Source: Clostridiales bacterium (lineage in GTDB: Bacteria > Bacillota > Clostridia > Christensenellales > Borkfalkiaceae). Taken from it: a DNA stretch of 35,475 nt. Where the stretch lies: positions 70,628-106,102 of the forward strand of contig SVHK01000001.1 of assembly GCA_015055865.1 (NCBI GenBank), read 5' to 3'. Positions 3,181 through 29,780 of the stretch are shown in pieces (the first letter of the stretch is position 1; each line of letters begins with the position of its first letter). The notes beneath the pieces were generated by a model, which was given only the letters and a program-made list of their open reading frames with translations, was not told the DNA's origin and did no database searches. A program made the translations under genes and the position numbers.

Positions 3181-3414
3181 TTTAATCGAAGAACCAAGAA
3201 GTTCAAGAAGCGTTGAGTACGCCGAAGGGAGTTTACTATTCGTAAACGAGCAAGGCGCACGGAAACGCGACGAAGAAATGCGACGGTTATCCCATCAAAT
3301 TATATTTAATCGAAGAACCGAGAAGTTCAAGAAGCGTTGAGTACGCCGAAGGGAGTTTACTATTCGTAAACGAGCAAGGCGCACGGAAACGCGACGAAGA
3401 AATGCGACGGTTAT
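3181..3414 (-). repeat. Two direct copies of the dispersed hairpin element, ending at the rimM stop (group B)
   Basis: Copies at 3181-3290 and 3305-3414 (offset 124 bp) differ at only one or two positions. On the minus strand each reads from ATAACCGTCGC to CGGTTCTTCGATTAAA. Inside is a nested hairpin: GTGCGCC/GGCGTAC (3378-3384 with 3341-3347) outside and GTTTAC/GTAAAC (3366-3371 with 3355-3360) inside. The outer ends pair as TTTAATC...GATTAAA, and the left arm of that pair includes the rimM stop codon region. Confidence 0.85.
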
Positions 3415-3418
3415 GTGA

Positions 3419-3919
3419 TTAAATAACCGCGATTTCGTCGAAGATTGCTTTATTAAGAATGACTTTCTTGTTCTCCAAATCAACTTTGACGATAACGCCT
3501 TTTACGGCAGGGAAAAGTATGCTTTTCCCTGCTTTTTCGATTGTGTAAACGTCGGAAGAAAGATTGACGATAGATTTTACCGTCCCTAAAAACTCCCCGT
3601 CTTGCGTTTCGCAAGAAAGACCGATAATGTCTACGATATAGTATTGCCCTTCTTCCAATTCGGGCGCGTCGGCGCGATTCCCTTCGATTTTTTTACCGCG
3701 CAAGAGCTCCGCCGTGTTTCTATCGGGTACGCCACGCAAACCTACGTACGCCGAGCCGTCCGTACCGACGCGGAAGGAAAGGATTTTGTATTCCTTATCG
3801 TCGATATACACCACCCCGAACTCTTTTACCACTTCGGGCGTGTCCGTAAACGTTTTAATTTTGATTTCCCCGCGTATGCCTTGGGGTTTAAGCACTTCGC
3901 CAATCGTCAGTCTTTCCAT
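3419..3919 (-). CDS. rimM: 16S rRNA processing factor RimM
   Basis: The 166-residue protein begins MERLTIGEVLKPQGIRGEIK, the signature RimM N-terminus (beta-barrel domain). A PRC-barrel-like second half follows (QYYIVDIIGLSCETQDGEFLG, then SILFPAVKGVIVKVDLENKKV). RimM assists maturation of the 30S head and binds ribosomal protein S19. The frame is open 19 codons further upstream, but that stretch is encoded by a terminator hairpin. The chosen ATG has AAGGAA 7 nt upstream and matches the family N-terminus. It is the last gene of the ylxM-ffh-rpsP-khpA-rimM block. The usual next genes, trmD and rplS, are not here. The element at 3305-3414 touches its stop codon. Confidence 0.93.
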   Translation of the reverse strand: MERLTIGEVLKPQGIRGEIKIKTFTDTPEVVKEFGVVYIDDKEYKILSFRVGTDGSAYVGLRGVPDRNTAELLRGKKIEGNRADAPELEEGQYYIVDIIGLSCETQDGEFLGTVKSIVNLSSDVYTIEKAGKSILFPAVKGVIVKVDLENKKVILNKAIFDEIAVI

Positions 3920-3940
3920 ACTTTTTCCTTCTTGATAGCG

Positions 3941-3967
3941 GAAAAAAGGCTTTCTAACGAAAGCCTT
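3941..3967 (-). terminator. Intrinsic terminator or attenuator between khpA and rimM
   Basis: On the minus strand AAGGCTTTC-GTTA-GAAAGCCTT (a perfect 9-bp stem, 3946-3967) is followed by TTTTTTC. It lies after the khpA stop and 20-odd nt before the rimM ribosome-binding site, so it probably lowers rimM transcription relative to rpsP and khpA. Confidence 0.75.
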
Positions 3968-4000
3968 GTTTTTCACGCAAAGTCAATAAACCATTAAATT

Positions 4001-4285
4001 TTATTCCGCGTCTTCTTCGTTAAAATCTTCGTCAAGCTTTACTGCGTTACCGCCCTTTTCTTGGATTTCAACGACGTATTTTTTCGCGTTACGGGGCGTA
4101 GCTACTTGTACGAGCGTGCGCAACGCTTTTGCAATTTTGCCTTGTTTGCCTATTACCTTACCCATATCGGACGCAGGCAAAGTAACGGTTACTTCGACAA
4201 CTCTTTCTTTTTCGTTGACGTCGTATTGGACGTTTTCTTTATCGTCGGCGAATTGCTCAACGATATACTTAATTAAATCCAACAT
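4001..4285 (-). CDS. khpA: KH-domain RNA-binding protein KhpA (YlqC)
   Basis: A 94-residue protein with one KH domain. The GxxG loop reads GKQGK around residues 42-46 within MGKVIGKQGKIAKALRTLV. KhpA proteins bind RNA and usually pair with KhpB/Jag; they affect cell elongation and RNA metabolism in Firmicutes. The position between rpsP and rimM is the standard one. The C-terminus is longer and more acidic than usual (VKLDEDFNEEDAE). No clear Shine-Dalgarno precedes the ATG, and the start is 11 nt after the rpsP stop, so translation may be coupled to rpsP. Confidence 0.92.
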   Translation of the reverse strand: MLDLIKYIVEQFADDKENVQYDVNEKERVVEVTVTLPASDMGKVIGKQGKIAKALRTLVQVATPRNAKKYVVEIQEKGGNAVKLDEDFNEEDAE

Positions 4286-4296
4286 TTTATTTAAGC

Positions 4297-4587
4297 TTAT
4301 TTATTGTTTTTCTTCGTCTTGGTCTTAGGCGCGCTGAGCTTCGCGGATTTTTCCATCGCGCCTGCTTTAACGAGCAAGTTCTTAACGGTTTCGGTGGGTT
4401 GCGCGCCCTTTGCAATCCAATCCTTAGCCTTTGCTACGTCGATGTCTGCTTCAGCGGAAATCGAAGGGTTGTAGTGACCGATGCAGTCGATATATTCGCC
4501 GTGCATAGCCTTTCTGCTATCCGCAACAACAACACGATAGATAGGGTTTTTCTTGTCGCCCATTCTGAAAAGTCTCATTTTTACCAT
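4297..4587 (-). CDS. rpsP: 30S ribosomal protein bS16
   Basis: A 96-residue protein beginning MVKMRLFRMGDKKNPIYRVV, the bS16 hallmark, followed by ADSRKAMHGEYIDCIGHYNP and the AKDWIAKGAQPTETVKNLL segment. It ends in a Lys-rich tail. It is a primary-assembly protein of the small subunit. Five codons of open frame precede the chosen start, but GGAGG sits 8 nt upstream of this ATG, which decides it. The gene follows ffh after about 390 bp filled by repeat elements, so it may depend on read-through or its own promoter. Confidence 0.95.
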   Translation of the reverse strand: MVKMRLFRMGDKKNPIYRVVVADSRKAMHGEYIDCIGHYNPSISAEADIDVAKAKDWIAKGAQPTETVKNLLVKAGAMEKSAKLSAPKTKTKKNNK

Positions 4588-4722
4588 AATAAATACCTCC
4601 AAAGTATATAAAAATTTTTTTATTTTTTTCGTTTGTTAAATTCCCTATCCCCGTTTTGGGGTGTACTTACTAGGGATTGAATGCGACTACCGTCGCCGTA
4701 CGCCTTTTTTAAGGTCAAATTG

Positions 4723-4812
4723 GTGCTTGGCGTTAGATACGAGCAACAACGTCCCGTTGTATCGAGTCTTTCTATCTTTCCGCTACGCTTGGGTGTTGCC
4801 TTCTCGTCAACC
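4723..4812. repeat. 90-bp repeat, copy 1 (copy 2 at 21055-21144)
   Basis: These 90 bases match 21055-21144 with about three mismatches. They contain AACAACGTCCCGTTGT (stem ACAACG/CGTTGT) and a flanking GATAC/GTATC pair. One edge is the GCTTGGCGTTAGATACGAG terminus shared with the hairpin elements. Both copies lie beside an element downstream of a minus-strand gene (ffh here, cls there). The spurious peptides read from both copies are alike, which is a consequence of the repeat, not evidence of a gene. Confidence 0.85.
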
Positions 4813-4824
4813 TATTAAACTCGT

Positions 4825-4977
4825 GCTTGGTGTTAGATGCGAGCAGTTCAAGGAGCAACGAGTACGTTGCAGGGAGCGTACTAATCCGTACGCGACCAAG
4901 AAAACGCGGAGCTCGACGCAGTATTGCGACGTATATAACGTCAAGCGTTGTATTGCGACGTATATAACGTCAAGCGT
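4825..4977 (-). repeat. Dispersed hairpin element abutting the ffh stop (group D), with 29-bp tandem duplication
   Basis: On the minus strand it starts directly after the ffh stop with GCTTGACGTTATATACG and ends with the near-inverted copy at 4825-4841 (13 of 17 positions complementary). The inner hairpin is GCGTAC/GTACGC (4888-4893 with 4876-4881), where the other copies have GTTTAC/GTAAAC, a double compensatory change. A 29-bp unit at 4921-4949 is repeated at 4950-4978. Confidence 0.8.
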
Positions 4978-6297
4978 TTAAAAAGGCAATCTAAACCGAC
5001 CCTTGCCCCCCTTCAACTGCTTCATCAACGTCTTAGTTTGTTCGAATTGCTTTAAAAGTTGGTTGATTTCTTGCACGGTCGTACCCGAACCCGCCGCGAT
5101 ACGGCGTTTGCGTTTACTGTCGATAATGGACGGATTGTCCCGTTCTTGCTTAGTCATTGAAAGAATCATCGCGCGCGTCCGTTCAATCCGTTTTTCGTCC
5201 ACGTCGCCTTCGTTCACCTTGAGCTTACTCATACCGGGCAACATCGAAAGCATTGCTTGCGCGCCACCCATCTTTTTCATCATCGCGAATTGCTCCAAAT
5301 AATCAGTCAGCGTGAACGAATTTTCGAGCATTTTCTTTTGCATCTTCTTCGCGTCTTCTTCGGTAATCGCTTGTTGCGCCTTTTCAATCAAGGACAACAC
5401 GTCGCCCATACCGAGTATTCTCGACGCCATACGGTCGGGATGGAACGGCTCTAAATCAGTCAACTTTTCGCCTACCCCGATAAACTTAATCGGTTTCCCC
5501 GTTACCGCTTTAATGGACAGACACGCACCACCGCGAGTATCGCCGTCAAGCTTGGTTAAGATAACGCCCGTAACGTCCAATCTTGCGTTGAACGTTTCCG
5601 CAACGTTGACCGCTTCTTGACCAGTCATTGCGTCCACGACGAGCAAGGTTTCCGTCACTTCGAGTTGCGCCTTGATGTTTTCAAGCTCTTGCATCAACGT
5701 ATCGTCGATTTGCAATCTACCAGCCGTATCGATAACGACGGTATCGTACCCCATCGACTTTGCGTACTCAATCCCTTCTTTCGCCGTCTTAACGGGATTT
5801 TGCGTACCCTTTTCAAAAACTTCTACGCCTGCGTTCTTGCCCACTACTTTTAATTGGGTAATCGCCGCAGGACGGTAAATATCGCCTGCAACTAAAAGTG
5901 GCTTTTTGCCGTTCTTCTTCAAATGAATCGCAAGCTTACCGCAAAGCGTGGTCTTACCTGCGCCTTGCAACCCGCACATCATAATAACCGTAGGGAGCTT
6001 AGGCGAAGTTTCGAGTTTCGCATTCTTCGAGCCCATCAACTCAATCAATTCGTCGTTGACGATTTTAATAACTTGTTGCGCAGGATTCAAAGACGAGAGA
6101 ATTTCTTGCCCAACCGCTTTTTCCGAAACGTCCGCGATGAATTGTTTCGCGACTTTCAAATTGACGTCCGCTTCCAAAAGCGCGACGCGTACTTCACGCA
6201 TCGCCGTGCGTATTTCAAGCTCGGTCAGTTTTCCACGTTTCGTGAGCTTTGAAAATATATGATTTAATCTTTCGGATAAACCGCCGAATAACGCCAT
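4978..6297 (-). CDS. ffh: Signal recognition particle GTPase Ffh
   Basis: A 439-residue protein with the NG GTPase domain followed by the Met-rich M domain. The P-loop GLQGAGKTT is at 109-117, DTAGRL at 190-195 and TKLDGDTRGG from 248. The RNA- and signal-binding M domain starts near 300, with the MLPGM and GSGTTVQEINQLLKQF signatures. With 4.5S/scRNA it delivers ribosome-nascent chain complexes to FtsY and the Sec translocon. The start lies 3 nt after the ylxM stop, so the two are co-transcribed. A hairpin element begins immediately at its stop codon. Confidence 0.97.
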   Translation of the reverse strand: MALFGGLSERLNHIFSKLTKRGKLTELEIRTAMREVRVALLEADVNLKVAKQFIADVSEKAVGQEILSSLNPAQQVIKIVNDELIELMGSKNAKLETSPKLPTVIMMCGLQGAGKTTLCGKLAIHLKKNGKKPLLVAGDIYRPAAITQLKVVGKNAGVEVFEKGTQNPVKTAKEGIEYAKSMGYDTVVIDTAGRLQIDDTLMQELENIKAQLEVTETLLVVDAMTGQEAVNVAETFNARLDVTGVILTKLDGDTRGGACLSIKAVTGKPIKFIGVGEKLTDLEPFHPDRMASRILGMGDVLSLIEKAQQAITEEDAKKMQKKMLENSFTLTDYLEQFAMMKKMGGAQAMLSMLPGMSKLKVNEGDVDEKRIERTRAMILSMTKQERDNPSIIDSKRKRRIAAGSGTTVQEINQLLKQFEQTKTLMKQLKGGKGRFRLPF

Positions 6298-6300
6298 TGC

Positions 6301-6726
6301 CTACTCCTTCTCACGAAAAACTTTTCCGATAATTTCGCCGTTTTCAGTATCTTCCGTTTCCACGCCAAAGTCTTGATGCACCGAAGAAAGGACTTTTTCC
6401 AAGCCCTTAAGCTCGTCCGCCATTTCGGGTTTTTCTCTTTTTACCCGTTCACACCAACGCTTGACCTGAGTCATATACGCGGAATATTCTCCGCTCAATT
6501 CGTCCAAAGCCTTAATAAACCCAAGTTTTTTATCGTAGCTTTCGAGCTGTTTACGGCATTTTTGTAAACAATCGGAAACGCTTTGACGGGACACACCTTT
6601 TTGTTCGGCAATCTCGCCGAGCGATAAATCGTAATTGAAATACAAATCGGTGATTTCCCGTTGCGTATTGGTTAAAAGCGGAGAGTACAAATCCCAAAGC
6701 CGAAGAAAATTCAAATCGTCTTTCAT
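6301..6726 (-). CDS. ylxM: YlxM/p13 family SRP-associated helix-turn-helix protein
   Basis: A 141-residue protein whose first 70 residues match the YlxM (UPF0122) sigma-70 region 4-like HTH: LLTNTQREITDLYFNYDLSLGEIAEQ followed by GVSRQSVSDCLQKCRKQLESY. It sits directly upstream of ffh, its usual partner, and is thought to modulate SRP. Residues 70-141 are charged and longer than the minimal family member. The frame opens 26 codons earlier, but that part overlaps a terminator and promoter. The chosen ATG is preceded by GGGGGTGGAG. Confidence 0.9.
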   Translation of the reverse strand: MKDDLNFLRLWDLYSPLLTNTQREITDLYFNYDLSLGEIAEQKGVSRQSVSDCLQKCRKQLESYDKKLGFIKALDELSGEYSAYMTQVKRWCERVKREKPEMADELKGLEKVLSSVHQDFGVETEDTENGEIIGKVFREKE

Positions 6727-6753
6727 CTCTCCACCCCCAACGTAACTAACGAT

Positions 6754-6782
6754 ATTATACCGAATAAAAACCGCCCTGTCAA
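6754..6782 (-). promoter_or_regulatory. Consensus promoter of the ylxM-ffh-rpsP operon, embedded in a terminator
   Basis: The minus strand has a perfect TTGACA (6777-6782), a 17-nt spacer and a perfect TATAAT (6754-6759), 27 nt before the ylxM start. The -35 box lies inside the 3' arm of the terminator hairpin at 6773-6802, and that terminator's T-run forms part of the spacer. Confidence 0.85.
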
Positions 6783-6802
6783 GCATTTTTACTTGACAGG
6801 GC
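6764..6802 (-). terminator. Intrinsic terminator after the LRR lipoprotein gene
   Basis: GCCCTGTCAAG (6792-6802 read on the minus strand) pairs perfectly over 11 bp with CTTGACAGGGC (6773-6783) around an 8-nt loop. GG and five T residues follow. It would stop transcripts coming from the LRR gene. Confidence 0.8.
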
Positions 6803-6859
6803 AAACTTTTTTGAATTTTTTTAGATTTCTTTTCTCTTCTATTAGTAAACCAAGCCGTT

Positions 6860-6916
6860 CTTAATTAAAAAAACCGAGTTATACAAATGAAAAGACGCGA
6901 CGGTTATGCCATTAAG
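6860..6916 (-). repeat. Internally deleted remnant of the hairpin element at the LRR gene stop
   Basis: The minus strand shows CTTAATGGCATAACCG at the stop codon (6901-6916) and, 24 nt on, the near-inverted CGGTTTTTTTAATTAAG (6860-6876). These correspond to the outer arms of the full elements, including the shared ATAACCGTCGC motif. The central hairpin is missing. Confidence 0.6.
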
Positions 6917-8153
6917 CTTTATAATCCCACACGACGGGACAATCGTCTTTATTCCAATCTTCATTCCAACCGTTAGGCTTTTTAGGCGTTTGGCAATAAA
7001 TAGTCAAACTATCGCAATCGAAGAACGCACATTCGCCAAGCTTAGTTACGCCGTAGGGAATTACTATTCCCGTTAAAATACTACAATACGCAAACGCATA
7101 AGCACCTAGCCTCTCTACATTATTGCCCAACGACACGCTCGTTAAATTATTGCAACCATAAAAAGCCCTATCTCCAATCGTCTTTACGCCGTTACCAATT
7201 ACTACGCTCGTTAAATTAATACAACCATTGAACGCAGAATGACCAATTGCGGTTACGTTATCGGAAATTTCCACGCTCGTTAGATGAGAGCACCCACTGA
7301 ACGTAGAATCTCCAATCGCCGTTACCCCATCACCGATTACCACGCTTGTTAAATTAATACAATATGCAAATGCGCCAGTCTCAAGAGTCGTTACGCTATC
7401 GGGAATTACTATCTCCGTTAACCCATCGCACTCCCCAAACGCATTTCTACCTATACTAATTACGCTGTTTGGAATTACTATCTCCGTCAAACTACCGCAA
7501 TTACCGAACACATAAGAGCCCAGCGTAGTTATGCCGTTGCCCATTGTCACGTTCGTTAAGTTAAAGCAATCCCTAAAAGCATCATCCCCAATCGCAATTA
7601 CGCTATCAGGAATTTCTATCTTCGTTAAACTATAGCACCTCCTAAACGCACCTTCGCGAATCTCGGTTACGCCGTTAGGGATTTTCACGCTCGTTAAACT
7701 TCCGCAATCGTTAAAAACACCCCTATCAATCGCAGTTACGTTGTCTGGGATTTCAATCTTAGTTAAACCATCGCAATTGCTGAACGCAGAAGCACCAATC
7801 CCAGTTACACCGTTGGGCATTTCTAAGCTCTTTAAACTATAACACTCACTAAATGCGCTTTCGCCAATCGTGGTTACGCTATCGGGAATTTCTACTTCAG
7901 TTAATCTATACGCTCCACTGAACGCAAACTTTCCAATCGCCGTTACCGCTTTTCCTTCATACTTTGACGGGATAACGATATTTTCGTCCATACACGTACC
8001 GATTCCGCTTACTTCGTACGTACCGTCTTCCAAAAGCGTAAATTCTAACCCCTTACTCGCTCTAAAAAAATCACACGAAGCTAAACCTATTGCGCTTATA
8101 GTCAACGACAACAACGTCAACGCTACCATTACATATTTTTTCAATCTTCTCAT
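6912..8153 (-). CDS. BspA-like leucine-rich-repeat lipoprotein
   Basis: A 413-residue protein with a lipoprotein signal (MRRLKKY, hydrophobic core, lipobox LASC with Cys at residue 27). After a short linker there are about 14 consecutive 23-residue repeats of the LRR_5/BspA type: (V)TxIGxxAFxxCxxLTxVxIPxx. The family forms a right-handed solenoid and is common in surface proteins of gut and oral anaerobes; the ligand here cannot be inferred. The C-terminal cap reads KKPNGWNEDWNKDDCPVVWDYKA. The ribosome-binding site is weak (AAGAGA). A good promoter lies at 8195-8223 and a terminator at 6764-6802, so it appears monocistronic. Confidence 0.9.
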   Translation of the reverse strand: MRRLKKYVMVALTLLSLTISAIGLASCDFFRASKGLEFTLLEDGTYEVSGIGTCMDENIVIPSKYEGKAVTAIGKFAFSGAYRLTEVEIPDSVTTIGESAFSECYSLKSLEMPNGVTGIGASAFSNCDGLTKIEIPDNVTAIDRGVFNDCGSLTSVKIPNGVTEIREGAFRRCYSLTKIEIPDSVIAIGDDAFRDCFNLTNVTMGNGITTLGSYVFGNCGSLTEIVIPNSVISIGRNAFGECDGLTEIVIPDSVTTLETGAFAYCINLTSVVIGDGVTAIGDSTFSGCSHLTSVEISDNVTAIGHSAFNGCINLTSVVIGNGVKTIGDRAFYGCNNLTSVSLGNNVERLGAYAFAYCSILTGIVIPYGVTKLGECAFFDCDSLTIYCQTPKKPNGWNEDWNKDDCPVVWDYKA

Positions 8154-8194
8154 TCTCTTATTTCTCGCATTGAAATCAAATTTATCTTATAATA

Positions 8195-8223
8195 ATTATA
8201 CAAAAGTTTTTCGTTTCCGTCAA
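8195..8223 (-). promoter_or_regulatory. Promoter of the LRR lipoprotein gene
   Basis: TTGACG (8218-8223), a 17-nt spacer and TATAAT (8195-8200) on the minus strand, about 42 nt before the start codon. Confidence 0.8.
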
Positions 8224-8300
8224 GTATTTTTGGAAAAATTTTTCTATCCCGCCGTGGCGGACGGCAAATTGCTTTAAACGAAATCTTAACGACGTAGAAT

Positions 8301-8340
8301 AAAAAAGCGCTTTCGTTTTGCTTCACGAAAGCGCTTTTTT
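8301..8340. terminator. Terminator at the end of the pyrH-rseP operon
   Basis: AAAAAAGCGCTTTCGT pairs with ACGAAAGCGCTTTTTT around an 8-nt loop. The A and T tracts let it act in both directions. It lies 18 bp after the rseP stop. Confidence 0.85.
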
Positions 8341-8358
8341 ATTGATTATTATTTTAGT

Positions 8359-12467: not shown

Positions 12468-12470
12468 ACT

Positions 12471-16722: not shown

Positions 16723-16905
16723 GGCTTTGTCATAGAGAATGGTTGATTTTAGCTGAAATTTATTTTCAGCGATTTGACGAGAAAAATACAAGAAAGACAA
16801 GTGATTTGCAAGGGCGCATACCCTAGCGGTCTGTAACCGAGCAAAACACGAAGTATTTCGCAGTATCTTTTCCGTCAAAAATCAACTAGATGATATGACA
16901 AAGCC
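16723..16905 (-). repeat. Dispersed hairpin element overlapping the 3' end of rdgB (group F)
   Basis: A perfect 12-bp inverted repeat, GGCTTTGTCATA (16723-16734) and TATGACAAAGCC (16894-16905), bounds the element, with a second pair GGTTGATTTT/AAAATCAACT inside. The left arm on the minus strand is the last coding part of rdgB. The interior keeps the family landmarks ATACTGCG, GCTCGGTTAC and CTTGTCTTTCTTG. Its hairpin is CGGT/ACCG (16827-16839). Confidence 0.75.
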
Positions 16906-21008: not shown

Positions 21009-21054
21009 AATTTTCATTTTTTAAATCAGTTTTGCTCGTCAACCAATTAAACTC

Positions 21055-21144
21055 GTGCTTGGCGTTAGATACGAGCAACAACGTCCCGTTGTATCGAGTT
21101 TTTCTATCTTTCTGCTACGCTTGGGTGTTGCTTTCTCGTCAACC
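21055..21144. repeat. 90-bp repeat, copy 2 (copy 1 at 4723-4812)
   Basis: Nearly identical to 4723-4812, with about three C/T differences. It again sits next to a hairpin element downstream of a minus-strand gene. It contains the ACAACG/CGTTGT hairpin and the GCTTGGCGTTAGATACGAG edge. Confidence 0.85.
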
Positions 21145-21152
21145 AAGTCTTT

Positions 21153-21274
21153 GCTTGGCGTTAGATACGAGCAAGACAAGGCGTATTGAGTACGCCGACG
21201 GGAGTTTACTAAATCGTAAACGAGCTAGGCGCACGGAAATACAACGCAGTATTGCGACGTATATAACGTCAAGC
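21153..21274 (-). repeat. Dispersed hairpin element adjoining the cls stop (group C)
   Basis: On the minus strand it runs from GCTTGACGTTATATACG, beside the cls stop, to the near-inverted CGTATCTAACGCCAAGC (15 of 17 positions complementary). The nested hairpin pairs GTGCGCC with GGCGTAC (21228-21234, 21190-21196) and GTTTAC with GTAAAC (21216-21221, 21204-21209). Confidence 0.85.
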
Positions 21275-21275
21275 T

Positions 21276-22937
21276 TTATACTACCGTGTCGAAAAGACGT
21301 AGAATACTATCCACCAACCTACCAAACCAACTACGCTTGGTCGTTTCTTCCGTTTGTAAACGGGAAACTTCAAAAGTATTTTCACAGTCTTTGCGAACAG
21401 CTTTAACCGCGTCGCAACCGGAGAAATACACGGCGTTTTCGAAATGTAAATATAAACTACGATAATCGAAATTGATAGAGCCGACTACCGCATATTCGTC
21501 GTCCACGACGATACTTTTCGAGTGCAAGAACCCCGGCGTATATTCGTAAATTTTAACGCCGTGTTGCATTAAAACGGGGTAGTTTGCTCTCGTCATTCTA
21601 AAGACCATTTTCTTATCGGGTATGGCGGGCGTTACGATTCTAACGTCCACCCCGCGCATCGACGCGTGACAAAGCGCAACCCGTAATCCGTCGGGTAAAA
21701 TCAAATAAGGCGTAAAAACGTAAACGTACTTACTTGCCCTATCGATAAGGTCAAGATACACGAACTCGCCGTCGCTCTTTCTATCGAGCGGAGAATCGTC
21801 GAACGGTTGCACGAAAAATTGCGCGCGTTCGCCCTGTTCTTGCAAAGATTTTTCTTCCCTTTTAAGCAAAGTTTCTTTTGCGTCGTCTATTTCGCCAAGT
21901 AAGGTTTTTAAATCGACCTTTTTCGCTTTATCTTTACAAAACGCGTTCCATAAATCGAAAAACATCACGATAAAGGAATTTACCGCGCCACCTTGCACTT
22001 TAACGCCCGAATCTTTCCAATCCCCAAACCGTATCCGTTCGCCGATATATTCGTCGGCAAGGTTAAGTCCGCCCGTAAACGCGACTTTATCGTCAACGAC
22101 GAACATTTTTCTATGGTCACGATTGTTTTGATGAATCGCAAATAACGGCATTACGCGGTTGAACGCGATACACTTAATATTTTCGTGCATACTTTCTAAG
22201 CGTTTTTCGTAATGTCTGGGCAAAACGAGTACGCTTCCGAAATCGTCGAAAATTATATAAATTTTCACGCCCGACTCCGCTTTTTCAAGCAGTTTCGCTT
22301 TCAACCTTTCCCAAAGCTTACCTTTTCCGATAATGAAATACTCAATCAAGACGAATTTTTCCGCTTTTTCAAGCTCTTTCATCATTTCTTCGAATAATTC
22401 CACGCCCGTTGGATAATAGTCAAGCGTGCCGTCCGTATAACAAGGGTATCCCGCTTGACTCAACAGGTATTTGCAAACCGCGCCGTTCCGACCGGCTTCG
22501 TCCACGAGCCGTTCCGTGCGTTCGGTTTGGATTAAATACGATTTATTTTTTTCTTTTGATTCGCTTAACCGCTTTTTCATATACACGGTCGGTCTACCTT
22601 CCCCGTACATCAAGAAAAACGCAATCCCTATTACGGGAAAAACCAAAATCATAATTATCCATTTCAGTTTCGCCGACGCGTCGTTGTCCGTTCTATTTAC
22701 AAGATACAATACGAATACGCCTGCTATCGTCCATATAACCGTGCGGAAAATCGGCGTCGCTTCGTATTCGACGAAATATAACAAAACAATCCATACGATT
22801 AGCTGAATAAACGCCAACAGTACGCACGTGTAAACCCGATTATACACGAATCCGCGTTGACCGAACTTTTTATCGTTTTCGTCCTTTTTCTTCATAAGTT
22901 TTTCGTTCTTTTCAGACATTTTCCCCATTTGCTCCAT
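21276..22937 (-). CDS. cls: Cardiolipin synthase (phospholipase D superfamily)
   Basis: About 553 residues. A charged N-terminus is followed by two or three membrane helices (VLLAFIQLIVWIVLLYF, then AGVFVLYLV, then WIIMILVFPVIGIAFFLMYG). Two PLD catalytic HxKxxxxD motifs follow: HRKMFVVDD with GGLNLADEY, and HSKSIVVDD with GSINFDYRS. It joins two phosphatidylglycerols, or a related pair, into cardiolipin at the membrane. The frame is open to 22964, but that ATG lies inside the -10 box of a strong promoter, so translation must begin further in. I choose the ATG at 22937; two more lie within six codons. The stop adjoins a repeat element. Confidence 0.92.
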   Translation of the reverse strand: MEQMGKMSEKNEKLMKKKDENDKKFGQRGFVYNRVYTCVLLAFIQLIVWIVLLYFVEYEATPIFRTVIWTIAGVFVLYLVNRTDNDASAKLKWIIMILVFPVIGIAFFLMYGEGRPTVYMKKRLSESKEKNKSYLIQTERTERLVDEAGRNGAVCKYLLSQAGYPCYTDGTLDYYPTGVELFEEMMKELEKAEKFVLIEYFIIGKGKLWERLKAKLLEKAESGVKIYIIFDDFGSVLVLPRHYEKRLESMHENIKCIAFNRVMPLFAIHQNNRDHRKMFVVDDKVAFTGGLNLADEYIGERIRFGDWKDSGVKVQGGAVNSFIVMFFDLWNAFCKDKAKKVDLKTLLGEIDDAKETLLKREEKSLQEQGERAQFFVQPFDDSPLDRKSDGEFVYLDLIDRASKYVYVFTPYLILPDGLRVALCHASMRGVDVRIVTPAIPDKKMVFRMTRANYPVLMQHGVKIYEYTPGFLHSKSIVVDDEYAVVGSINFDYRSLYLHFENAVYFSGCDAVKAVRKDCENTFEVSRLQTEETTKRSWFGRLVDSILRLFDTVV

Positions 22938-22962: not shown

Positions 22963-22991
22963 ATTTTAACAATTTAAGCCAATTTTGTCAA
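22963..22991 (-). promoter_or_regulatory. Promoter of cls
   Basis: A perfect TTGACA (22986-22991), a 17-nt spacer and TAAAAT (22963-22968) on the minus strand. The -10 contains the most upstream ATG of the cls frame, which argues against that start. Confidence 0.75.
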
Positions 22992-23158: not shown

Positions 23159-23187
23159 TTGACAAATATATTTTTTTGTATTATACT
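23159..23187 (+). promoter_or_regulatory. Promoter of the rubrerythrin gene
   Basis: TTGACA (23159-23164), a 17-nt spacer and TATACT (23182-23187). The T/A-tract region upstream is typical of strong clostridial promoters. No clear PerR box was seen. Confidence 0.8.
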
Positions 23188-23251
23188 ATAATCACTTAAT
23201 AAAACTAAATCCTATTAAGAAAACATTAAAAATATTTAGGAGAAAAAAATT

Positions 23252-23893: not shown

Positions 23894-23939
23894 TTTTTGT
23901 CAATAACTTCCGTACTCTCCAATAACACGGAACTTATCA

Positions 23940-23975
23940 GGGCAGGTACGCATTACCGCGTACCTGCCCTTTTCA
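23940..23975 (+). terminator. Terminator after the rubrerythrin gene
   Basis: GGGCAGGTACG pairs with CGTACCTGCCC (11 bp) around 8 nt and is followed by four T residues. Confidence 0.85.
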
Positions 23976-24056
23976 TTTTATTTTTCTCGCGCTCCCGTGT
24001 GATTTTTAACGGAAATTTTTTCCAAACAAATTTTTATATAAAATACGAACATTTGT

Positions 24057-24085
24057 TTGACTTTTTATTTTTAAAGTGTTATACT
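24057..24085 (+). promoter_or_regulatory. Promoter of the radical SAM/DUF4130 pair
   Basis: TTGACT (24057-24062), a 17-nt spacer and TATACT (24080-24085) with an extended TGT. It is 31 nt before the start codon. Confidence 0.8.
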
Positions 24086-24116
24086 TGAAAAAAACAGGTA
24101 TTACTTAGGGGCGAAA

Positions 24117-25481
24117 ATGATTGACGAAGGAAGATTGAAAATTTTAACGGACGGCGCGAAATACGACGTATCTTGTTCTTCGTCGGGGTCTAGGCGAAAA
24201 AACGAAAAAGACGGGCTGGGGAACGCTTCGTTTGGGGGAATTTGTCATTCTTTCGCGCAAGACGGAAGATGTATTTCTTTGCTAAAAATTTTAATGAGTA
24301 ACGATTGCGTATTCGATTGTAGGTATTGCCCTAATCGACGGAGCGCGGACGTTCAACGCGCAACGGTTACCCCCGAAGAAGTTTGCGAATTGACGATGGA
24401 TTTTTATAGGCGGAATTATATCGAAGGCTTGTTTTTATCTTCTGCGGTCTATAAAAACCCCGACTACGCGATGGAGCTTTTGTTAAAAACGGTATTTTTG
24501 CTTAGAACGAAATACAAGTTTAACGGATATATCCATTTAAAAGGGATTCCGCACGCCGATAAACGTTTAATCGAACAATCGGCGAAACTCGTGGATAGAA
24601 TGAGTTATAACGTGGAACTGCCAAAGGAAGAGAGTTTAAAACTGCTCGCTCCGCAAAAAACGAAAGAGAGTATTTTAGGGCCGATGAATTTGCTTGCGAA
24701 CGGCAAAAAGGAATTTGCGCTCGAACGGAAAAATCGAACGGGTATCACGGCGAGAAAGGGAACGGAAAAATACCTGCCTGCCGGACAAACCACGCAAATG
24801 ATTGTCGGCGCGACTCCCGAAACGGACGGGCAAATTTTACGGCTTTCGCAAGCTATGTATCGAAAGTTCGATTTAAAACGGGTATATTATTCCAGCTATT
24901 TACCCGTCGTTTCCGACCCGATTTTGCCGAATGAAACGGTTGGATTGTTAAGAGAACATCGGCTCTATCAAGCGGATTGGCTAATGCGTTTTTACGGATT
25001 TTCTTCGGAAGAAATTTCGCCGTTGGACGAAAATTTGCCGATGGAATACGACCCTAAATGCGCTTGGGCGTTACGCAATATGCAATTTTTCCCTATTGAA
25101 GTAAACACGGCAAGCGTTGAAGAATTGCTCCGCGTACCCGGTATCGGCGCAAAAGGCGCGTACAAAATTATTTCGGCAAGAAAAAGTTGCGCTCTTTCTT
25201 TCGAACATTTGAAAAAAATGCGAATCGTTCTAAAACGGGCAAAGCACTTTATAACGGCGTCGGGGAAATTCTACGGCGAAAAAAAGCAAGAAAACGTAAA
25301 ATTTCATTTAATGCTCGCCGAACGGCAGGAAAACGCGAAACAACTCGATTTTTTTACCCTTTTACCGTCGCAAGCGGAAGAAAAAAATCAAATTTTACTC
25401 TCCGCTACTCAACGCGATAAAGAGTTCTTGCTGAACTCGTCGCCACAAATCGCTTCGTCCGTACTCTCGGGTCAATTATAA
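24117..25481 (+). CDS. Putative DNA modification/repair radical SAM protein
   Basis: A 454-residue radical SAM enzyme. The 4Fe-4S motif CxxxCxxC is in SNDCVFDCRYCPNR (about residues 60-75), followed by a partial SAM barrel. A helix-hairpin-helix DNA-binding motif lies near 345 (VNTASVEELLRVPGIGAKGAYKI). The architecture and the partner gene match the family annotated as putative DNA modification/repair radical SAM protein (TIGR03916), whose reaction has not been established as far as I know. The tail from 400 onward is polar and probably disordered. The start has AGGGG upstream. The partner follows 22 bp later on the same strand. Confidence 0.88.
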   Translation: MIDEGRLKILTDGAKYDVSCSSSGSRRKNEKDGLGNASFGGICHSFAQDGRCISLLKILMSNDCVFDCRYCPNRRSADVQRATVTPEEVCELTMDFYRRNYIEGLFLSSAVYKNPDYAMELLLKTVFLLRTKYKFNGYIHLKGIPHADKRLIEQSAKLVDRMSYNVELPKEESLKLLAPQKTKESILGPMNLLANGKKEFALERKNRTGITARKGTEKYLPAGQTTQMIVGATPETDGQILRLSQAMYRKFDLKRVYYSSYLPVVSDPILPNETVGLLREHRLYQADWLMRFYGFSSEEISPLDENLPMEYDPKCAWALRNMQFFPIEVNTASVEELLRVPGIGAKGAYKIISARKSCALSFEHLKKMRIVLKRAKHFITASGKFYGEKKQENVKFHLMLAERQENAKQLDFFTLLPSQAEEKNQILLSATQRDKEFLLNSSPQIASSVLSGQL

Positions 25482-25503
25482 AAACAAGGGGGCAGGTACG
25501 TCA

Positions 25504-26247
25504 ATGAGAAGGATATATCGAATAGATAAAAGTCTAGAAAGTTTTTTCACGGCGGTATTTTACGCCTACAACGATAAGAACGCCTACCTTACTTCCGCTG
25601 AAATTTTCCAGCCGGAATTAGAAGACACTATTTTTCGTTTAGAAAGCGAATCCGACAAGGCAGAACGCGTACAACGGACGATTTACAAAACCGACCCAAA
25701 GGCAAAACGCGAAATCGAACGCATTTTGCGTTCTAACCATTTTGAACGAGAACAAATCGCTTTTGAATACCTAAAACTCGTGATAAAACACGGAAAATCG
25801 GCAAGGGAGCGTTTGACGATTTCCGCCGTCAGGCGGGCGATGGACGAAGTAAAAAAAGTAGGCCACGAAGTCCACCGCTTGCACGGTTTTTTACGGTTTC
25901 AGGAATGTGAAAACGGCGTATATTACGGTGCTTGTTCACCCGATAACGATATTTTGGAACTACTCATTCCGCATTTCGTCGCGCGATTTACCAACCAAGC
26001 GTTCATTATTCACGACGTAAAACGCGGAAAAGCCGTTCTTTACAACGGCGAAAAATATCTCGTCGTACCTGCCAAAAACGCGTCCTTTCACTTAACCGAA
26101 AGAGAAAAAAGCGTCGTAGCGTTATGGAAAAAATATTATCATACCGTCGCAATCCCCAAACGAAAAAATTTACGGTTGATGAAAAACTATATGCCCGTTC
26201 GGTATTGGAAATATATGTGCGAAAAAGACGCCGACGATTTAAGATAA
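25504..26247 (+). CDS. DUF4130 / TIGR03915-type putative DNA metabolism protein
   Basis: A 247-residue soluble protein of the SAM-linked DUF4130 family. Typical features are YRIDKSLESFFTAVFYAY at the N-terminus, a central EVHRLHGFLRFQE, then PDNDILELLIPHFVARFTNQ and the C-terminal NYMPVRYWKYMCE. In other genomes this domain is adjacent to the same radical SAM protein, and in some it is fused to a uracil-DNA-glycosylase-like domain. No glycosylase domain is present here. The RBS is AAGGGGG about 12 nt upstream. It ends in a strong hairpin. The function is unknown; a joint role in DNA repair or modification is inferred from the pairing. Confidence 0.87.
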   Translation: MRRIYRIDKSLESFFTAVFYAYNDKNAYLTSAEIFQPELEDTIFRLESESDKAERVQRTIYKTDPKAKREIERILRSNHFEREQIAFEYLKLVIKHGKSARERLTISAVRRAMDEVKKVGHEVHRLHGFLRFQECENGVYYGACSPDNDILELLIPHFVARFTNQAFIIHDVKRGKAVLYNGEKYLVVPAKNASFHLTEREKSVVALWKKYYHTVAIPKRKNLRLMKNYMPVRYWKYMCEKDADDLR

Positions 26248-26249
26248 AC

Positions 26250-26278
26250 TCTGCCCCTGCTTTTTAAAGCAGGGGCAG
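26250..26278. terminator. Bidirectional hairpin between the DUF4130 gene and the feo cluster
   Basis: CTGCCCCTGCTTT and AAAGCAGGGGCAG form a perfect 13-bp stem between convergent genes. The following bases are AT-rich rather than pure T, but position and stability favour a shared terminator. Confidence 0.75.
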
Positions 26279-26284
26279 ATAATT

Positions 26285-26440
26285 TTATTCGGTTTTATCT
26301 TTTCTTTGACACGAGCATTGGCAACTTGCGCAATCGCAACCACAACTGCTCTTGCCCTGTTTCTTCCGTATTACGCTACGGACGATTACGCCTACTACGA
26401 CGGTTATAGAAAATATAATCACCGCAATATCCCAACCCAT
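26285..26440 (-). CDS. FeoB-associated Cys-rich membrane protein
   Basis: A 51-residue frame that is easily missed. One N-terminal membrane helix (MGWDIAVIIFSITVVVGVIV) is followed by a basic stretch (RSVIRKKQGKSS) and a Cys cluster (CGCDCASCQCSC, six cysteines). It ends in a charged tail. This is the pattern of the small FeoB-associated proteins found after feoB in Firmicutes, possibly a functional analogue of FeoC or an iron-delivery partner. AAGGAG stands 6 nt before the ATG. It begins 10 bp after the feoB stop and so belongs to the feoAB transcript. Confidence 0.88.
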   Translation of the reverse strand: MGWDIAVIIFSITVVVGVIVRSVIRKKQGKSSCGCDCASCQCSCQRKDKTE

Positions 26441-26450
26441 ACTAAACTCC

Positions 26451-28724
26451 TTAATTTTTCGTTTGTTTTTTGTTGTACGTTATAATCCCGACGGCAACCG
26501 CGCCAGCAACTGCAAGCCAGATAAACGCCGTCCACCACCACGAAAGTACGGTGTAGCAAATCGAACTTGCGATATACGAAGTCACTACCCAAAAAAGCAA
26601 CGTCCACTTAAATTTGCCTTTCCCGACTTCCCCTTTCGCTGCCGCAACCGCCGCAAAGCAAGGGATAGTCGTCATATTGAAGACGATAAACGCTACGAGC
26701 GCTTGCCAAGTAATTCCAGTACCGAGCGCCATTGCCATAACGTCCGTTGCGCCTTCCGCCGCAAGTTCAGGTACGGTAACGCCAGCGAATACCGCGGCAA
26801 GCGTGCCGAACGTTGCGATAACTTCTTCCTTTGCAATCAAGCCCGTAATCGCCGCTACGATAAATACCCAACCCGATTCGCCAAGTTGACTGCCGAACCC
26901 AAGCGGAGTGAATAACGGTTGCAAAATTTTACCAAGACTTGCTAAAATAGAATCGTTGACGTCCACCATTTTGAAGTTCCAACCGAAATTAGACAAGAAC
27001 CATACGACAATCGTCGACGCCAAAATAATGGTAAACACTTTTTCAATATAGTGTTTCGTCTTATCCCAAAGGTGAACGAGCAACCCTTTCGCACTGGGCG
27101 CGTGGTAAGGGGGTAATTCCATAATAAACGGCGTAATGTCCCCGCGTTGCGTAGTTTCGCGCATAACGATAATACTGATAAACGCAACCGCCATACCAAC
27201 GACGTACATTGAAAAACTGATGATACTGCCGTCGCCAAGTCCCGTCATATGCCCTACCGCGCCCGCAACGGCAACGAGTATGGGCAACTTCGCTCCGCAC
27301 GAGAAGAACGGAATCGTTCTAATCGTTAACGTGCGCTCTCTTTCGTCGAGCAGAGTACGGGTGTTGACCATAGCAGGTATGGAGCAACCGAACCCCATAA
27401 TCATTGGGATAAACGCTCTCCCTGAAATTCCGTAACGACGGAACAGTCTATCGAGAATAAACGCCACACGCGCCATATACCCCGTGTCTTCCAAAATGGA
27501 AAGAAGTAATAAAAGCGTCAAAATTTGCGGTACGAACGAGAGTACGCTACTAAGTCCGCTCAGTACGCCGTCGCCGATAAAGGATATTGCCCATTGCGAC
27601 GCACCTGCCCCCTCCATTAGCCCAATAATCCAATCGGAAATAGTGCTTGTTAAAAGGTCGGTCAGATTGAAAAGTACCACGCCAGGCGAATACAAAAGTC
27701 CGTCGTAGAAACAGCCAAGCAGGGATACGGCAAAGCTTGCAGGCACTAACTCGCCCGCCTCGTCCACGCGCATAAGCCCCAATTCTTCCAACGTGGGAAG
27801 TCCCCAAAGTCCGCTTAAGATAAATTCTTCCGCGAACGTGACGTGGAACACGGCAAACAAAATGAGTAAAAAGATGGGTATCCCGAACCACTTGTGCGTA
27901 ATGATTTTATCCGCTTTGTCTGATTTCGTTTCCGCCCACTCGTGCGCCGTTTTCTTAAGCAACGGCGAGTAATGCTCGGCTATGTATTTATATCTCGCGT
28001 CCGCAATCAACGCCTCGAAGTCCGTGCCGAACAGTTCGTCTTTAAAGCTTTCTTTAAACTGCGCCACTGCGCCGTTCGACGTCGGGTGCATTTCGCACTC
28101 AATTTTGTCCCCTTCGACGATTTTTACCGCGTGGAACAATGGATGCTCGACTTGTTGCGCTACTAATTCTTTTTGCACTTTCGCGATAATTTCCGCAAGT
28201 TTACTCTCGCCAAGTACCGTTCTTGCAATACATTTTTTCTTACTTTCCGCGTACGCGACTTGCATTAATTCGTCAAGCCCCTCTTCCTTTAACGCGGAAA
28301 CTTTCACCACAGGTACGCCCAAACGCCGTTCCAATGCTCGCTCGTCAATGCTGTCCCCCCTTTTTTCAAGTACGTCCATCATATTGAGCGCCACGACCAT
28401 GGGTACGTCAATTTCCAAAATTTGCGTCGTTAAATAGAGATTTCTTTCCAAATTAGTGACGTCCACGATATTGATAACGCAATCAGGCTCTTCGTCCAAA
28501 AGGAAGTTTCTAGACACGACTTCTTCGGGCGTGTAGGGCGACAAGGAATAAATCCCCGGCAAATCCACGATAGATACGGGTTCTGCGCATTTTTTATACG
28601 TCCCCTCTCTCTTATCCACCGTAACCCCAGGCCAATTCCCTACGTGCGCCGTGCTACCAGTCAAACAGTTGAAAAGAGTTGTTTTCCCCGAGTTGGGATT
28701 TCCCGCTAAAGCAAATTTAATCAT
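26451..28724 (-). CDS. feoB: Ferrous iron transport protein B
   Basis: A 757-residue Fe(II) transporter. The N-terminal G domain has G1 GNPNSGKTT (8-16), G3 in IVDLPGIYSLSPYTPEE and G4 NMMD. A helical regulatory region precedes the polytopic core, which holds the two Gate motifs (ILSILEDTGYMARVAFILDR and a second half ending near AFIVFNMTTIPCFAAVAA). The start is the ATG that overlaps the feoA stop (ATGA), with AGGAGG 10 nt upstream; an earlier in-frame ATG lies within feoA. feoA, feoB and the small Cys-rich gene form an operon under the iron-responsive promoter at 29002-29030. Confidence 0.96.
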   Translation of the reverse strand: MIKFALAGNPNSGKTTLFNCLTGSTAHVGNWPGVTVDKREGTYKKCAEPVSIVDLPGIYSLSPYTPEEVVSRNFLLDEEPDCVINIVDVTNLERNLYLTTQILEIDVPMVVALNMMDVLEKRGDSIDERALERRLGVPVVKVSALKEEGLDELMQVAYAESKKKCIARTVLGESKLAEIIAKVQKELVAQQVEHPLFHAVKIVEGDKIECEMHPTSNGAVAQFKESFKDELFGTDFEALIADARYKYIAEHYSPLLKKTAHEWAETKSDKADKIITHKWFGIPIFLLILFAVFHVTFAEEFILSGLWGLPTLEELGLMRVDEAGELVPASFAVSLLGCFYDGLLYSPGVVLFNLTDLLTSTISDWIIGLMEGAGASQWAISFIGDGVLSGLSSVLSFVPQILTLLLLLSILEDTGYMARVAFILDRLFRRYGISGRAFIPMIMGFGCSIPAMVNTRTLLDERERTLTIRTIPFFSCGAKLPILVAVAGAVGHMTGLGDGSIISFSMYVVGMAVAFISIIVMRETTQRGDITPFIMELPPYHAPSAKGLLVHLWDKTKHYIEKVFTIILASTIVVWFLSNFGWNFKMVDVNDSILASLGKILQPLFTPLGFGSQLGESGWVFIVAAITGLIAKEEVIATFGTLAAVFAGVTVPELAAEGATDVMAMALGTGITWQALVAFIVFNMTTIPCFAAVAAAKGEVGKGKFKWTLLFWVVTSYIASSICYTVLSWWWTAFIWLAVAGAVAVGIITYNKKQTKN

Positions 28725-28960
28725 TTTACTTCTACCTCCTTCATCACTACGCACGCCGCCTCCGTCTTTCTAAGCGTAAGCTCATACCCGCGCAAACTTA
28801 CTTCCAAAGGATCGCCAAACGGCGCTTTCCTCTTTAAGTAGACCATTGCTCCCGGCGTAACACCCATATCAAACAGCCTGCGCCGCATTGCGCCCTCGCC
28901 GTTGACAATTTTGATTACGCCCTTTTCGCCAATCTTAAATTCTGACAATAACTTTTCCAT
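28721..28960 (-). CDS. feoA: Ferrous iron transport protein A
   Basis: A 79-residue SH3-like protein: a G-KGVIKIVNGEGAMRRRLFD stretch, then MGVTPGAMVYLKRKAPFGDP, then RKTEAACVV. FeoA docks on FeoB and supports its activity in the cytosol. It overlaps feoB by 4 bp, so the two are translationally coupled. AGGAG precedes the ATG. The palindromic operator at 28977-28990 lies just ahead of its ribosome-binding site. Confidence 0.94.
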   Translation of the reverse strand: MEKLLSEFKIGEKGVIKIVNGEGAMRRRLFDMGVTPGAMVYLKRKAPFGDPLEVSLRGYELTLRKTEAACVVMKEVEVK

Positions 28961-28976
28961 TTTGCTCTCCTAAAAC

Positions 28977-28990
28977 TTAACCACGGTTAA
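28977..28990. promoter_or_regulatory. Probable DtxR/IdeR-type operator downstream of the feoA promoter
   Basis: TTAACC-AC-GGTTAA is a perfect 6-2-6 palindrome just after the predicted start site of feoA. A related site lies at 29039-29052 on the other side of the promoter. The adjacent DtxR-family gene makes it the likely ligand. Confidence 0.75.
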
Positions 28991-29001
28991 TTTTCGAACA
29001 T

Positions 29002-29030
29002 ATTATACCACTATTTTATTCGGGTGTCAA
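29002..29030 (-). promoter_or_regulatory. Promoter of feoAB
   Basis: TTGACA (29025-29030), a 17-nt spacer and TATAAT (29002-29007) on the minus strand: full consensus, bracketed by two TTAAC palindromes. Confidence 0.9.
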
Positions 29031-29038
29031 GCAAAAAA

Positions 29039-29052
29039 TTAACCTTAGTTAA
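29039..29052. promoter_or_regulatory. Second, upstream operator-like palindrome of feoAB
   Basis: TTAACCTTAGTTAA is an imperfect version of the 28977-28990 palindrome, 8 bp upstream of the -35 box. Two sites bracketing the promoter suggest cooperative repression. Confidence 0.65.
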
Positions 29053-29073
29053 AAAATTTTGGAATTTTTTTGC

Positions 29074-29109
29074 AAAAAAACTCCCTTAAGGCGGTTAAGC
29101 TTAAGGGAG
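29074..29109 (-). terminator. Terminator of the DtxR-type regulator gene
   Basis: CTCCCTTAAG and CTTAAGGGAG form a 10-bp stem, followed on the minus strand by seven T residues. It separates the regulator transcript from the feoAB promoter. Confidence 0.85.
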
Positions 29110-29140
29110 AGGATATATTATAATATTGTAAGGGAAAAAA

Positions 29141-29506
29141 TCAAACTTTTTCTTTCATTTTTTGGAAAGTTTCGTCTGATACGAGATGTTCCATACGACA
29201 AGCGTCTTCTTCGGCGGTTTGTTTAGAAACGCCGAGAGAGATTAAAAAATCGCGAATGATACAATGTTTTTGGAAAATTTCGTTCGCGCAAGACTTGCCC
29301 AGCGGAGTCAAGACGAGATGTTTGCCGTCTTCTTCGATATAGCCTTTTTCTATGAGGACTTTGACCGCTTTATTGACGGCGGCTTGCGAAACGTTCATTT
29401 TTCGCGCGACGTCGATACGGTGCACGACGGGATTTGTTTCCGCTATTAATAAAATACTCTCTAAATAGTCTTCTTCCGATTGACTGTGTTTGATAAAATC
29501 TACCAT
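29141..29506 (-). CDS. DtxR/MntR-family metal-dependent transcriptional regulator
   Basis: A 121-residue protein. A winged helix (SQSEEDYLESILLIAE, then RIDVARKMNVSQAAVNKAVK, then GYIEEDGKHLVLTPLGKSCA) is followed by the metal-binding dimerisation helices (IFQKHCIIRDFLISLGVSKQ, DACRMEHLVSDETFQKM). Residues equivalent to the metal ligands are visible in the Cys, Met, Glu and His around CRMEHLVS and in EIFQKH. The SH3-like third domain of DtxR is absent, as in MntR-sized members. It most likely controls feoAB through the flanking TTAACC palindromes; iron rather than manganese is inferred from this. The ATG with AAAGGAG upstream is preferred over the longer frame. Confidence 0.88.
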   Translation of the reverse strand: MVDFIKHSQSEEDYLESILLIAETNPVVHRIDVARKMNVSQAAVNKAVKVLIEKGYIEEDGKHLVLTPLGKSCANEIFQKHCIIRDFLISLGVSKQTAEEDACRMEHLVSDETFQKMKEKV

Positions 29507-29572
29507 TTTCTCTCCTTTATCCGCTAAAAATCCGAGCCGTTCCAAAGTTTACGGGAAGCAAGATTGCTTGTC

Positions 29573-29645
29573 AAACGACCGAAGGTTGCCACAGCGCAAC
29601 ACCGTATTTCGACGGTTATAAGACGAGCGTAGCGTCCCCAAAACT
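29573..29645. repeat. 73-bp direct duplication including the queA 3' coding end, copy 1
   Basis: These 73 bases are identical by eye to 29726-29798 (offset 153 bp). The last 30 bases equal the final codons and stop of queA, so a fragment of the gene end has been copied along with the element. Confidence 0.8.
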
Positions 29646-29661
29646 TATGGGAAGCAAGTTT

Positions 29662-29780
29662 GCTTGGCTTAGAACCGAGAAAGACAAGGCGCGCGAGGAA
29701 AACCTAAGGGAGTTTACTGAGTCGTAAACGACCGAAGGTTGCCACAGCGCAACACCGTATTTCGACGGTTATAAGACGAG
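29662..29780 (-). repeat. Dispersed hairpin element overlapping the queA 3' end (group E)
   Basis: On the minus strand the left arm GCTCGTCTTATAACC lies in the queA coding end and stop. The right arm at 29662-29676 is its near-inverted copy (12 of 15 positions). The interior has GTTTAC/GTAAAC (29724-29729, 29712-29717) nested in AACCT/AGGTT, where group A has AACTT/AAGTT. Confidence 0.8.

Follow-up and report, generated by a model that had tools for sequence, protein, structure and literature searches.

An ERIC-type palindromic element at the stop codons of Clostridia genes, with relatives in distant phyla

ERIC sequences (also IRU or RU-1; 127 bp) are used mainly for fingerprinting, and in 2005 De Gregorio reportedly described ERIC copies adjoining or covering stop codons in one orientation. 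According to excerpts of the sources cited here and below by PMC number, ERIC has been known from enterobacteria since 1990–91 and its orientation matters (PMC2229807), its hosts are placed in Enterobacteriaceae and Vibrionaceae (PMC10969869), TA termini and a TA target-site duplication are among its traits (PMC2759123), and at the 3' end of Yersinia genes it exposes an RNase E site (PMC10969869, PMC2229807). Here we analyze a nested palindrome of ~125 nt that recurs in a 35,475-nt stretch (hereafter “the window”) of the Clostridiales bacterium genome GCA_015055865.1 (contig SVHK01000001.1, positions 70,628–106,102 of the forward strand). With high confidence, we identify it as an ERIC-type small mobile palindrome; ERIC itself would be one branch of a wider family.

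A covariance model (R1) built from an alignment (A1) of 30 copies from the source genome detects nine minus-strand elements in the window and, across the whole genome, 48 matches at E ≤ 0.1, of which 46 also pass E ≤ 4e-4; the dispersed hairpin described in an earlier note on this DNA is thus real. Its core resembles that of ERIC; a 44-nt ERIC core sequence matches 5375 of 5426 E. coli genomes. One E. coli ERIC begins right behind the ybhI stop codon, oriented as in the Clostridia elements, and is the best R1 match at that locus, end to end and on the same strand (21.0 bits vs 7.6 for the next match). We also built an ERIC covariance model (R2) from 13 gammaproteobacterial copies (E. coli, Citrobacter, Pantoea, Klebsiella, Vibrio, Yersinia frederiksenii, and Rahnella) and searched 33 loci (315 kb) selected, among a larger number of such loci, for holding R1 elements. 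In these loci R1 elements cover 1.2% of strand-bases, yet all 16 R2 matches at E ≤ 1 (eight at E ≤ 0.0014, best 3.2e-6) fall on R1 elements and on their strand, 13 of them end to end, R2 thereby detecting 16 of the 62 R1 elements. In the reverse search, R1 recovers 8 of the 13 ERIC copies, in matching strand orientation (E 0.001 to 0.77, six at E ≤ 0.06), with one further weak match elsewhere. The two models thus reciprocally place the ERIC core in register within an imperfect palindrome of ~127 bp.

The earlier note knew of no described family with this layout and held that a match to a known miniature inverted-repeat transposable element (MITE) or Rfam family would count against its proposal. 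Rfam indeed gives no match, neither for the window at the gathering score nor for 21140–21290 at E ≤ 1, and identity with an Rfam family is rejected; the layout itself, however, is that of ERIC, so that the objection of a match to a known MITE family applies in part. Two ERIC traits were not found or differ. TA occurs at both ends of at most 6 of 91 copies in any register tried; among the same copies, direct repeats of 2 nt number 29 against at most 20 with swapped flanks, though in a register that lies within the arms, those of 3 nt number 11 vs 10, and those of 4–9 nt do not exceed swapped flanks, all for registers near the model ends, such that ends lying farther out would be missed. Because no TA duplication was found, we file the element as an ERIC relative rather than as ERIC proper. 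The hosts differ as well, comprising Clostridia, Porphyromonas, Desulfovibrio, and Verrucomicrobia.

That the wider family is common in this Clostridia order, and occurs also in Bacteroidota, Desulfovibrionaceae, Verrucomicrobia, and other Bacillota, is well supported. With the copy after ffh as query, blastn found a match in 31 of 36 genomes of the same genus and in 1 of 24 from other families. Across the order, R1 matched 121 of 297 sampled genomes, representing 46 of 125 genera, at E ≤ 0.001 (at most 11 candidates were scored per genome, i.e., copy numbers are floors), and across the phylum 26 of 398 drawn genomes, the source genome included, at E ≤ 1e-4 with at most eight candidates scored each. 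An exact core pattern run over GTDB species genomes returned at least 120 stretches; the 80 listed include Clostridia metagenome-assembled genomes (MAGs), Porphyromonas somerae, P. levii, Desulfovibrionaceae, Bacteroidia, Edaphobacillus, one deltaproteobacterial MAG, and one verrucomicrobial MAG, and R1 gives 105 matches on these 80 loci at E ≤ 0.01. Eight of the genomes behind these loci were surveyed whole, with 150 candidates scored in each, yielding 58 matches in P. somerae, 21 in P. levii, 68 in Desulfovibrio sp. A2, 75 in Verrucomicrobia GWF2_51_19, 148 in Deltaproteobacteria WY2.bin34, 15 in Lentimicrobiaceae HAN049, 53 in Clostridiales HAN106, and 1 in Edaphobacillus, the weakest of which may be chance because the threshold was only E ≤ 0.1. 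One contig labelled as an Alphaproteobacteria MAG (L123, 301–552) carries two high-scoring Clostridia-type elements, possibly through a binning error. In L031, L065, and L066 (G068), elements lie close to a different dispersed repeat, GTCATTTCGACCGAAG..GCGGAGAAATC.

Individual copies fold into a rod in which small internal loops separate several short helices and a hairpin, e.g., CACGTACG..GTACGCTCC, closes the end, and 24 of 32 predicted pairs show both-sided changes among the 30 source-genome copies. We evaluated covariation on 92 copies (37 from the source genome and 55 from 20 relatives, 18 shorter or weaker matches being left out) against a tree null, in which a tree was built and sites were simulated independently along it with column-specific composition and rate. 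By this simplified home-made stand-in for R-scape, with the structure derived by folding these very sequences, covariation at E < 0.05 is seen in 38 of 7503 column pairs: 29 are among the 45 structure pairs, 35 lie within one column of one, and 3 lie elsewhere, with every tier of the structure above the null. Within one copy, the outer arms pair at 14.1 of 18 positions vs 9.6 when swapped between copies, and 13.9 vs 11.2 when swapped within a genome (0 of 1000 shuffles reach the observed value in either case); when five genomes were tested singly, four had no swap reaching the observed pairing, and G068 had 59 of 1000. The compensatory base changes proposed in the earlier note are therefore genuine. 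The fold is kept while its letters change, even where the last codons of a gene form its base, suggesting that the cell or the element makes use of it at message ends. Short variants of ~105 nt (L071, L073, L075, L081, L088, and L091) seemingly lack one inner tier and keep the outer arms and hairpin.

Next, we evaluated placement on 110 R1 matches merged into 90 arrays (tandem copies counting as one), with genes called by a home-made caller. A negative distance marks a stop codon within the 5' arm. The 5' edge points toward a co-directional stop codon in 29 of 33 arrays of the source genome and 48 of 57 arrays of the 20 relatives, and lies within −16 to +12 nt of it in 18 and 38 arrays, respectively, compared to ~3% of random intergenic points given random orientation, although the arrays are not independent and the relatives were picked by best score. 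Random placement is refuted, and both the enrichment at stop codons and the constant orientation relative to the gene, as claimed earlier, are borne out; a single orientation at stop codons is also what is described for ERIC. Between convergent genes, 11 of 15 arrays are closer to the co-directional stop. The upstream proteins inspected look like ordinary housekeeping proteins (those outside the window were named by eye). For hosts other than Clostridia, placement could be assessed for 49 of the 105 R1 matches from the pattern-scan loci: in the deltaproteobacterial MAG, 18 of 21 copies have the 5' edge facing a stop codon, all 18 within −12 to +5 nt, and the 5' edge faces one in 3 of 4 copies in Desulfovibrionaceae, 3 of 5 in Verrucomicrobia, 2 of 3 in P. 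levii, and 5 of 6 in other Bacteroidia, most distances outside the deltaproteobacterium being large.

The mismatches that interrupt the helices distinguish the two strands. In 88 of the 92 copies (four, in which the script found no centred TAC..GTA loop, were dropped), pyrimidine–pyrimidine mismatches on the sense strand number 1094 vs 37 purine–purine, and over whole arms in a strand-symmetric alignment G.T outnumbers A.C by 221 to 112, 62 copies following this trend and 12 opposing it. From these counts the structure is strand-polar. Weighed together with the conflicting wobble counts and the folding energies given below, this lends moderate support to a single-strand structure in the sense orientation, for which RNA would be the simplest form.

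At queA, the pairing extends into the coding sequence. A sample of 39 queA matches in 38 genomes of the genus provided 30 loci, including that of the source genome; 19 have an element at the queA stop codon and 11 have no R1 match there. The native QueA end (FSFGDA/S..) itself makes up the outer 5' arm; the 11 loci without an element match have this end as well. The 3' arm follows the codon changes of that end, the CLIL, CLFL, TLVL/MLVL, and MFIV/TFIV ends each having a fitting 3' arm. Arms of the same locus pair at 8.5 of 12 positions vs 6.8 of 12 when swapped, and none of 2000 swaps reaches the observed value (16 distinct arm pairs); this score counts species and not independent events, and it is lowered by a wrongly trimmed 3' arm in L084. 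Elements associated with queA also occur in other families (L033 and L044). Two queA loci, L077 and L094, appear by eye to hold element remnants. L076 and L085 have no element and instead a short palindrome across the queA stop codon, perfect in L076 (GTTTGATTTTATAAATCAAAC) and nearly identical in L085, possibly a pre-insertion target or a deletion scar. Second copies downstream of queA carry a tail type unlike that of the resident gene in L074 (276–532), L075 (1192–1509), and L092 (2518–2775); L074 and L075 have two similar queA tail types in reversed order, as if units of tail and element insert at the gene end.

The elements and associated repeats of the window are the following.

1910..1996, minus strand: tandem element 3 of 3 (R1 45.4 bits)
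2009..2116, minus strand: tandem element 2 of 3 (R1 47.2 bits)
2118..2242, minus strand: tandem element 1 of 3, not at a stop codon (R1 102.4 bits)
3178..3301, minus strand: second tandem element after rimM, adjoining a convergent ThiT-like gene (R1 116.9 bits)
3302..3425, minus strand: element overlapping the end of rimM (open reading frame (ORF) end 3419; R1 120.9 bits)
4717..4812, minus strand: tail module downstream of the ffh element (repeat match to 21049–21144)
4823..4947, minus strand: full element after ffh (R1 94.2 bits)
4948..4977, minus strand: additional 5' outer-arm copy, lying between the ffh stop codon and the element (repeat match and sequence)
6889..6915, minus strand: possible remnant at the end of the leucine-rich-repeat (LRR) gene (27 nt, 81% match; no R1 match)
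16772..16879, minus strand: diverged element after rdgB (R1 35.2 bits, E 3.6e-6)
21049..21144, minus strand: tail module downstream of the cls element, with another 3' outer-arm copy (95% identical to 4717–4812)
21151..21275, minus strand: full element after cls, the best-scoring copy (R1 135.5 bits; cls ORF end 21276)
29573..29645, minus strand: incomplete second copy that includes a duplicate of the queA tail (identical to 29726–29798 over 73 nt)
29659..29783, minus strand: full element at queA (R1 105.3 bits; queA ORF end 29769)

NCBIfam supports the names rimM, ffh, rdgB, cls, and queA, the cls protein scoring 286.7 vs a cut-off of 290; the ThiT-like protein scores 99.1, under its cut-off of 108.45. 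The earlier note had placed the hairpin at the ends of six named genes: five have an R1 match, and the remnant near 6916 at the LRR gene has none. The copies it listed are likewise found by R1, but the 1910–2242 cluster does not sit at a stop codon, as both flanking genes point their starts at it. The cls element is also matched by R2 (21152–21276, 19.2 bits, E 0.049), the rdgB element has a longer outer stem (an inverted repeat at 16723–16905), and in the queA element the outer 5' arm consists of the final queA codons (TLVL) plus the stop codon. One or more tail modules of ~75–100 nt (..GAAAGATAGAAAGACTCGATGCAACGGGACGTTGC..) follow many elements of the source genome, and these modules often terminate in a further 3' outer-arm copy; they are also seen downstream of elements in L004, L008, L010, L012, and L014. 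The LRR gene (6912–8153) resembles a leucine-rich-repeat surface protein and has 69-nt internal repeats.

We favor, by a narrow measure, an explanation in which the ERIC-type element acts as a ribosome-gated sense hairpin at the stop codon; on the mechanistic part taken by itself, i.e., gating of a sense RNA hairpin by ribosomes, our confidence is about evenly balanced. Transcription of the upstream gene would run into the element, which would thus form the 3' end of that message and there, on the sense strand, fold into a rod built from short helices stacked on one another. Because the rod base would cover the stop codon and often the last codons too, a ribosome finishing the gene would open it, and traffic at the stop codon would decide whether the rod closes. 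Closed and open forms may then differ in ribonuclease access to the 3' arm, which would tune how fast the upstream portion of the message decays; such an effect is reported for ERIC in Yersinia, and ERIC is described as reducing the transcript upstream through an RNase E site in its right arm. The published logic fits here, the placement being the same and the queA helix including codons that the ribosome must unwind. When they lie within 15 nt of a stop codon, REPs are described as stalling ribosomes (PMC12306157, in excerpt).

Several observations weigh against this explanation. The stop-codon rule is weak in Bacteroidota: in P. somerae, 4 of 10 copies face a stop codon (4 of 6 if the four without a gene called there are set aside), and three of those four lie 63–138 nt away. 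The strand signal shrinks to 154 G.T vs 143 A.C in alignment columns and turns around slightly in the outer arms (59 G.T vs 79 A.C), and in 80 of 92 copies it is the reverse complement that has the lower RNA folding energy, for which we suspect purine–purine internal loops. RNase E/G, on which the Yersinia model relies, was detected in no more than 6 of 11 element-bearing genomes, among them the source genome, so that another nuclease would be needed in the remaining five. A terminator-like hairpin downstream, which would place the element inside the message, is found in only 10 of 68 arrays. Finally, copies at different loci can be 98% identical, indicating a recent spread that selfish DNA alone would explain.

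The two roles suggested by the earlier note, at mRNA 3' ends and as a mobile palindrome, both stay as the leading readings. The main rival to a translation-gated hairpin, possible although we doubt it, takes the element for purely selfish, non-autonomous DNA whose hairpin is needed for movement as single-stranded DNA or as a cruciform; its position would reflect target preference or the survival of harmless insertions, and arm complementarity would be kept by mobility selection or arm-to-arm copying. The near-identical copies and reverse-complement energies just mentioned agree with it, as do the tandem arrays, the second copies with a foreign queA tail (L074, L075, and L092), and the patchy presence at queA (19 of 30 loci). 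It is harder to reconcile with the strand polarity of mismatches (though a single DNA strand could be polar too), with native queA codon pairing kept at one orthologous site in many species, and with conserved internal mismatches, which arm-to-arm copying should presumably erase. No target-site duplication was found in registers near the model ends, and the RAYT-type Y1 transposase (PF01797) is present in 2 of 11 element-bearing genomes, with none in the source genome.

A transcription terminator, or a simple protector of 3' ends that blocks 3' exonucleases, would fit both the position and the stable fold, and bacteria commonly have stable hairpins a short way past stop codons (PMC1590033, in excerpt). 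We consider it improbable: by a simple scan the element itself provides a terminator-like hairpin with a T-run in 4 of 68 arrays, on which count the terminator is rejected, and the separate downstream hairpins of the 10 arrays, e.g., after cls, point the same way. More improbable still is an unrelated new family that converged on the ERIC core hairpin. Such convergence would account for the modest inter-family E-values (best 3.2e-6, window copy 0.049), the small share of R1 elements detected by R2, the differing tier-3 sequence, and the lack of a detected TA duplication, but it would leave unexplained that R2 matches fall exclusively on elements and their strand, mostly end to end, and that the E. 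coli copy examined has the same orientation at its stop codon.

As a tentative extension of the translation-gated hairpin, these elements may form a trans-phylum family of structured 3'-end RNA elements, ERIC being one branch, in which the basal helix can use the last codons of the host gene; each such element would co-evolve with the codons of its gene as a translation-gated switch, and units of gene tail and element would be exchanged between species. If pairing with coding ends is functional, some coding-region ends would be under RNA-structure constraint. The natural queA variants, with and without the element, make the gating idea directly testable. For ERIC, the high-copy relatives in distant phyla (seven of the eight surveyed genomes have 15–148 matches at E ≤ 0.1) supply the sequence depth that was missing, and with which covariation can tell a functional fold apart from a palindrome that arose by chance.

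Overall, the layout was already known from ERIC, while the wide host range, the covariation, and the coding-end pairing were not found in the literature searched. Nor did that literature mention ERIC-type elements in hosts beyond gammaproteobacteria, although this does not prove that no such account exists. Among other known repeats, and as far as excerpts of the cited sources go, NEMIS/Correia, RUP, and other MITEs are similar in their ~100–200 bp and long stem-loop transcripts (PMC2229807); RUP and Correia, compared by description only, have terminal inverted repeats and a target duplication (PMC2229807), and no duplication was found here. REP/BIME sequences with their RAYT share palindromes near stop codons and a proposed translational effect (PMC12306157), but REPs measure 20–40 bp (PMC3733652) vs ~125 nt here, and nine of the 11 element-bearing genomes have no Y1 transposase; with the source genome among these nine, REP/RAYT identity is rejected. 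Compared to ERIC, the elements differ in their arm and tier-3 sequences, in hosts outside gammaproteobacteria, in the TA duplication not found here, and in many locus-specific arms with compensating changes and tandem arrays with tail modules. They are like ERIC in length, in the nested palindrome running end to end, in the core (R)GTCAC-TAC..GTA-GCTCC(Y), in the GCCTT-CTGC block of the 3' arm, and, as the ybhI copy illustrates, in their orientation after a stop codon.

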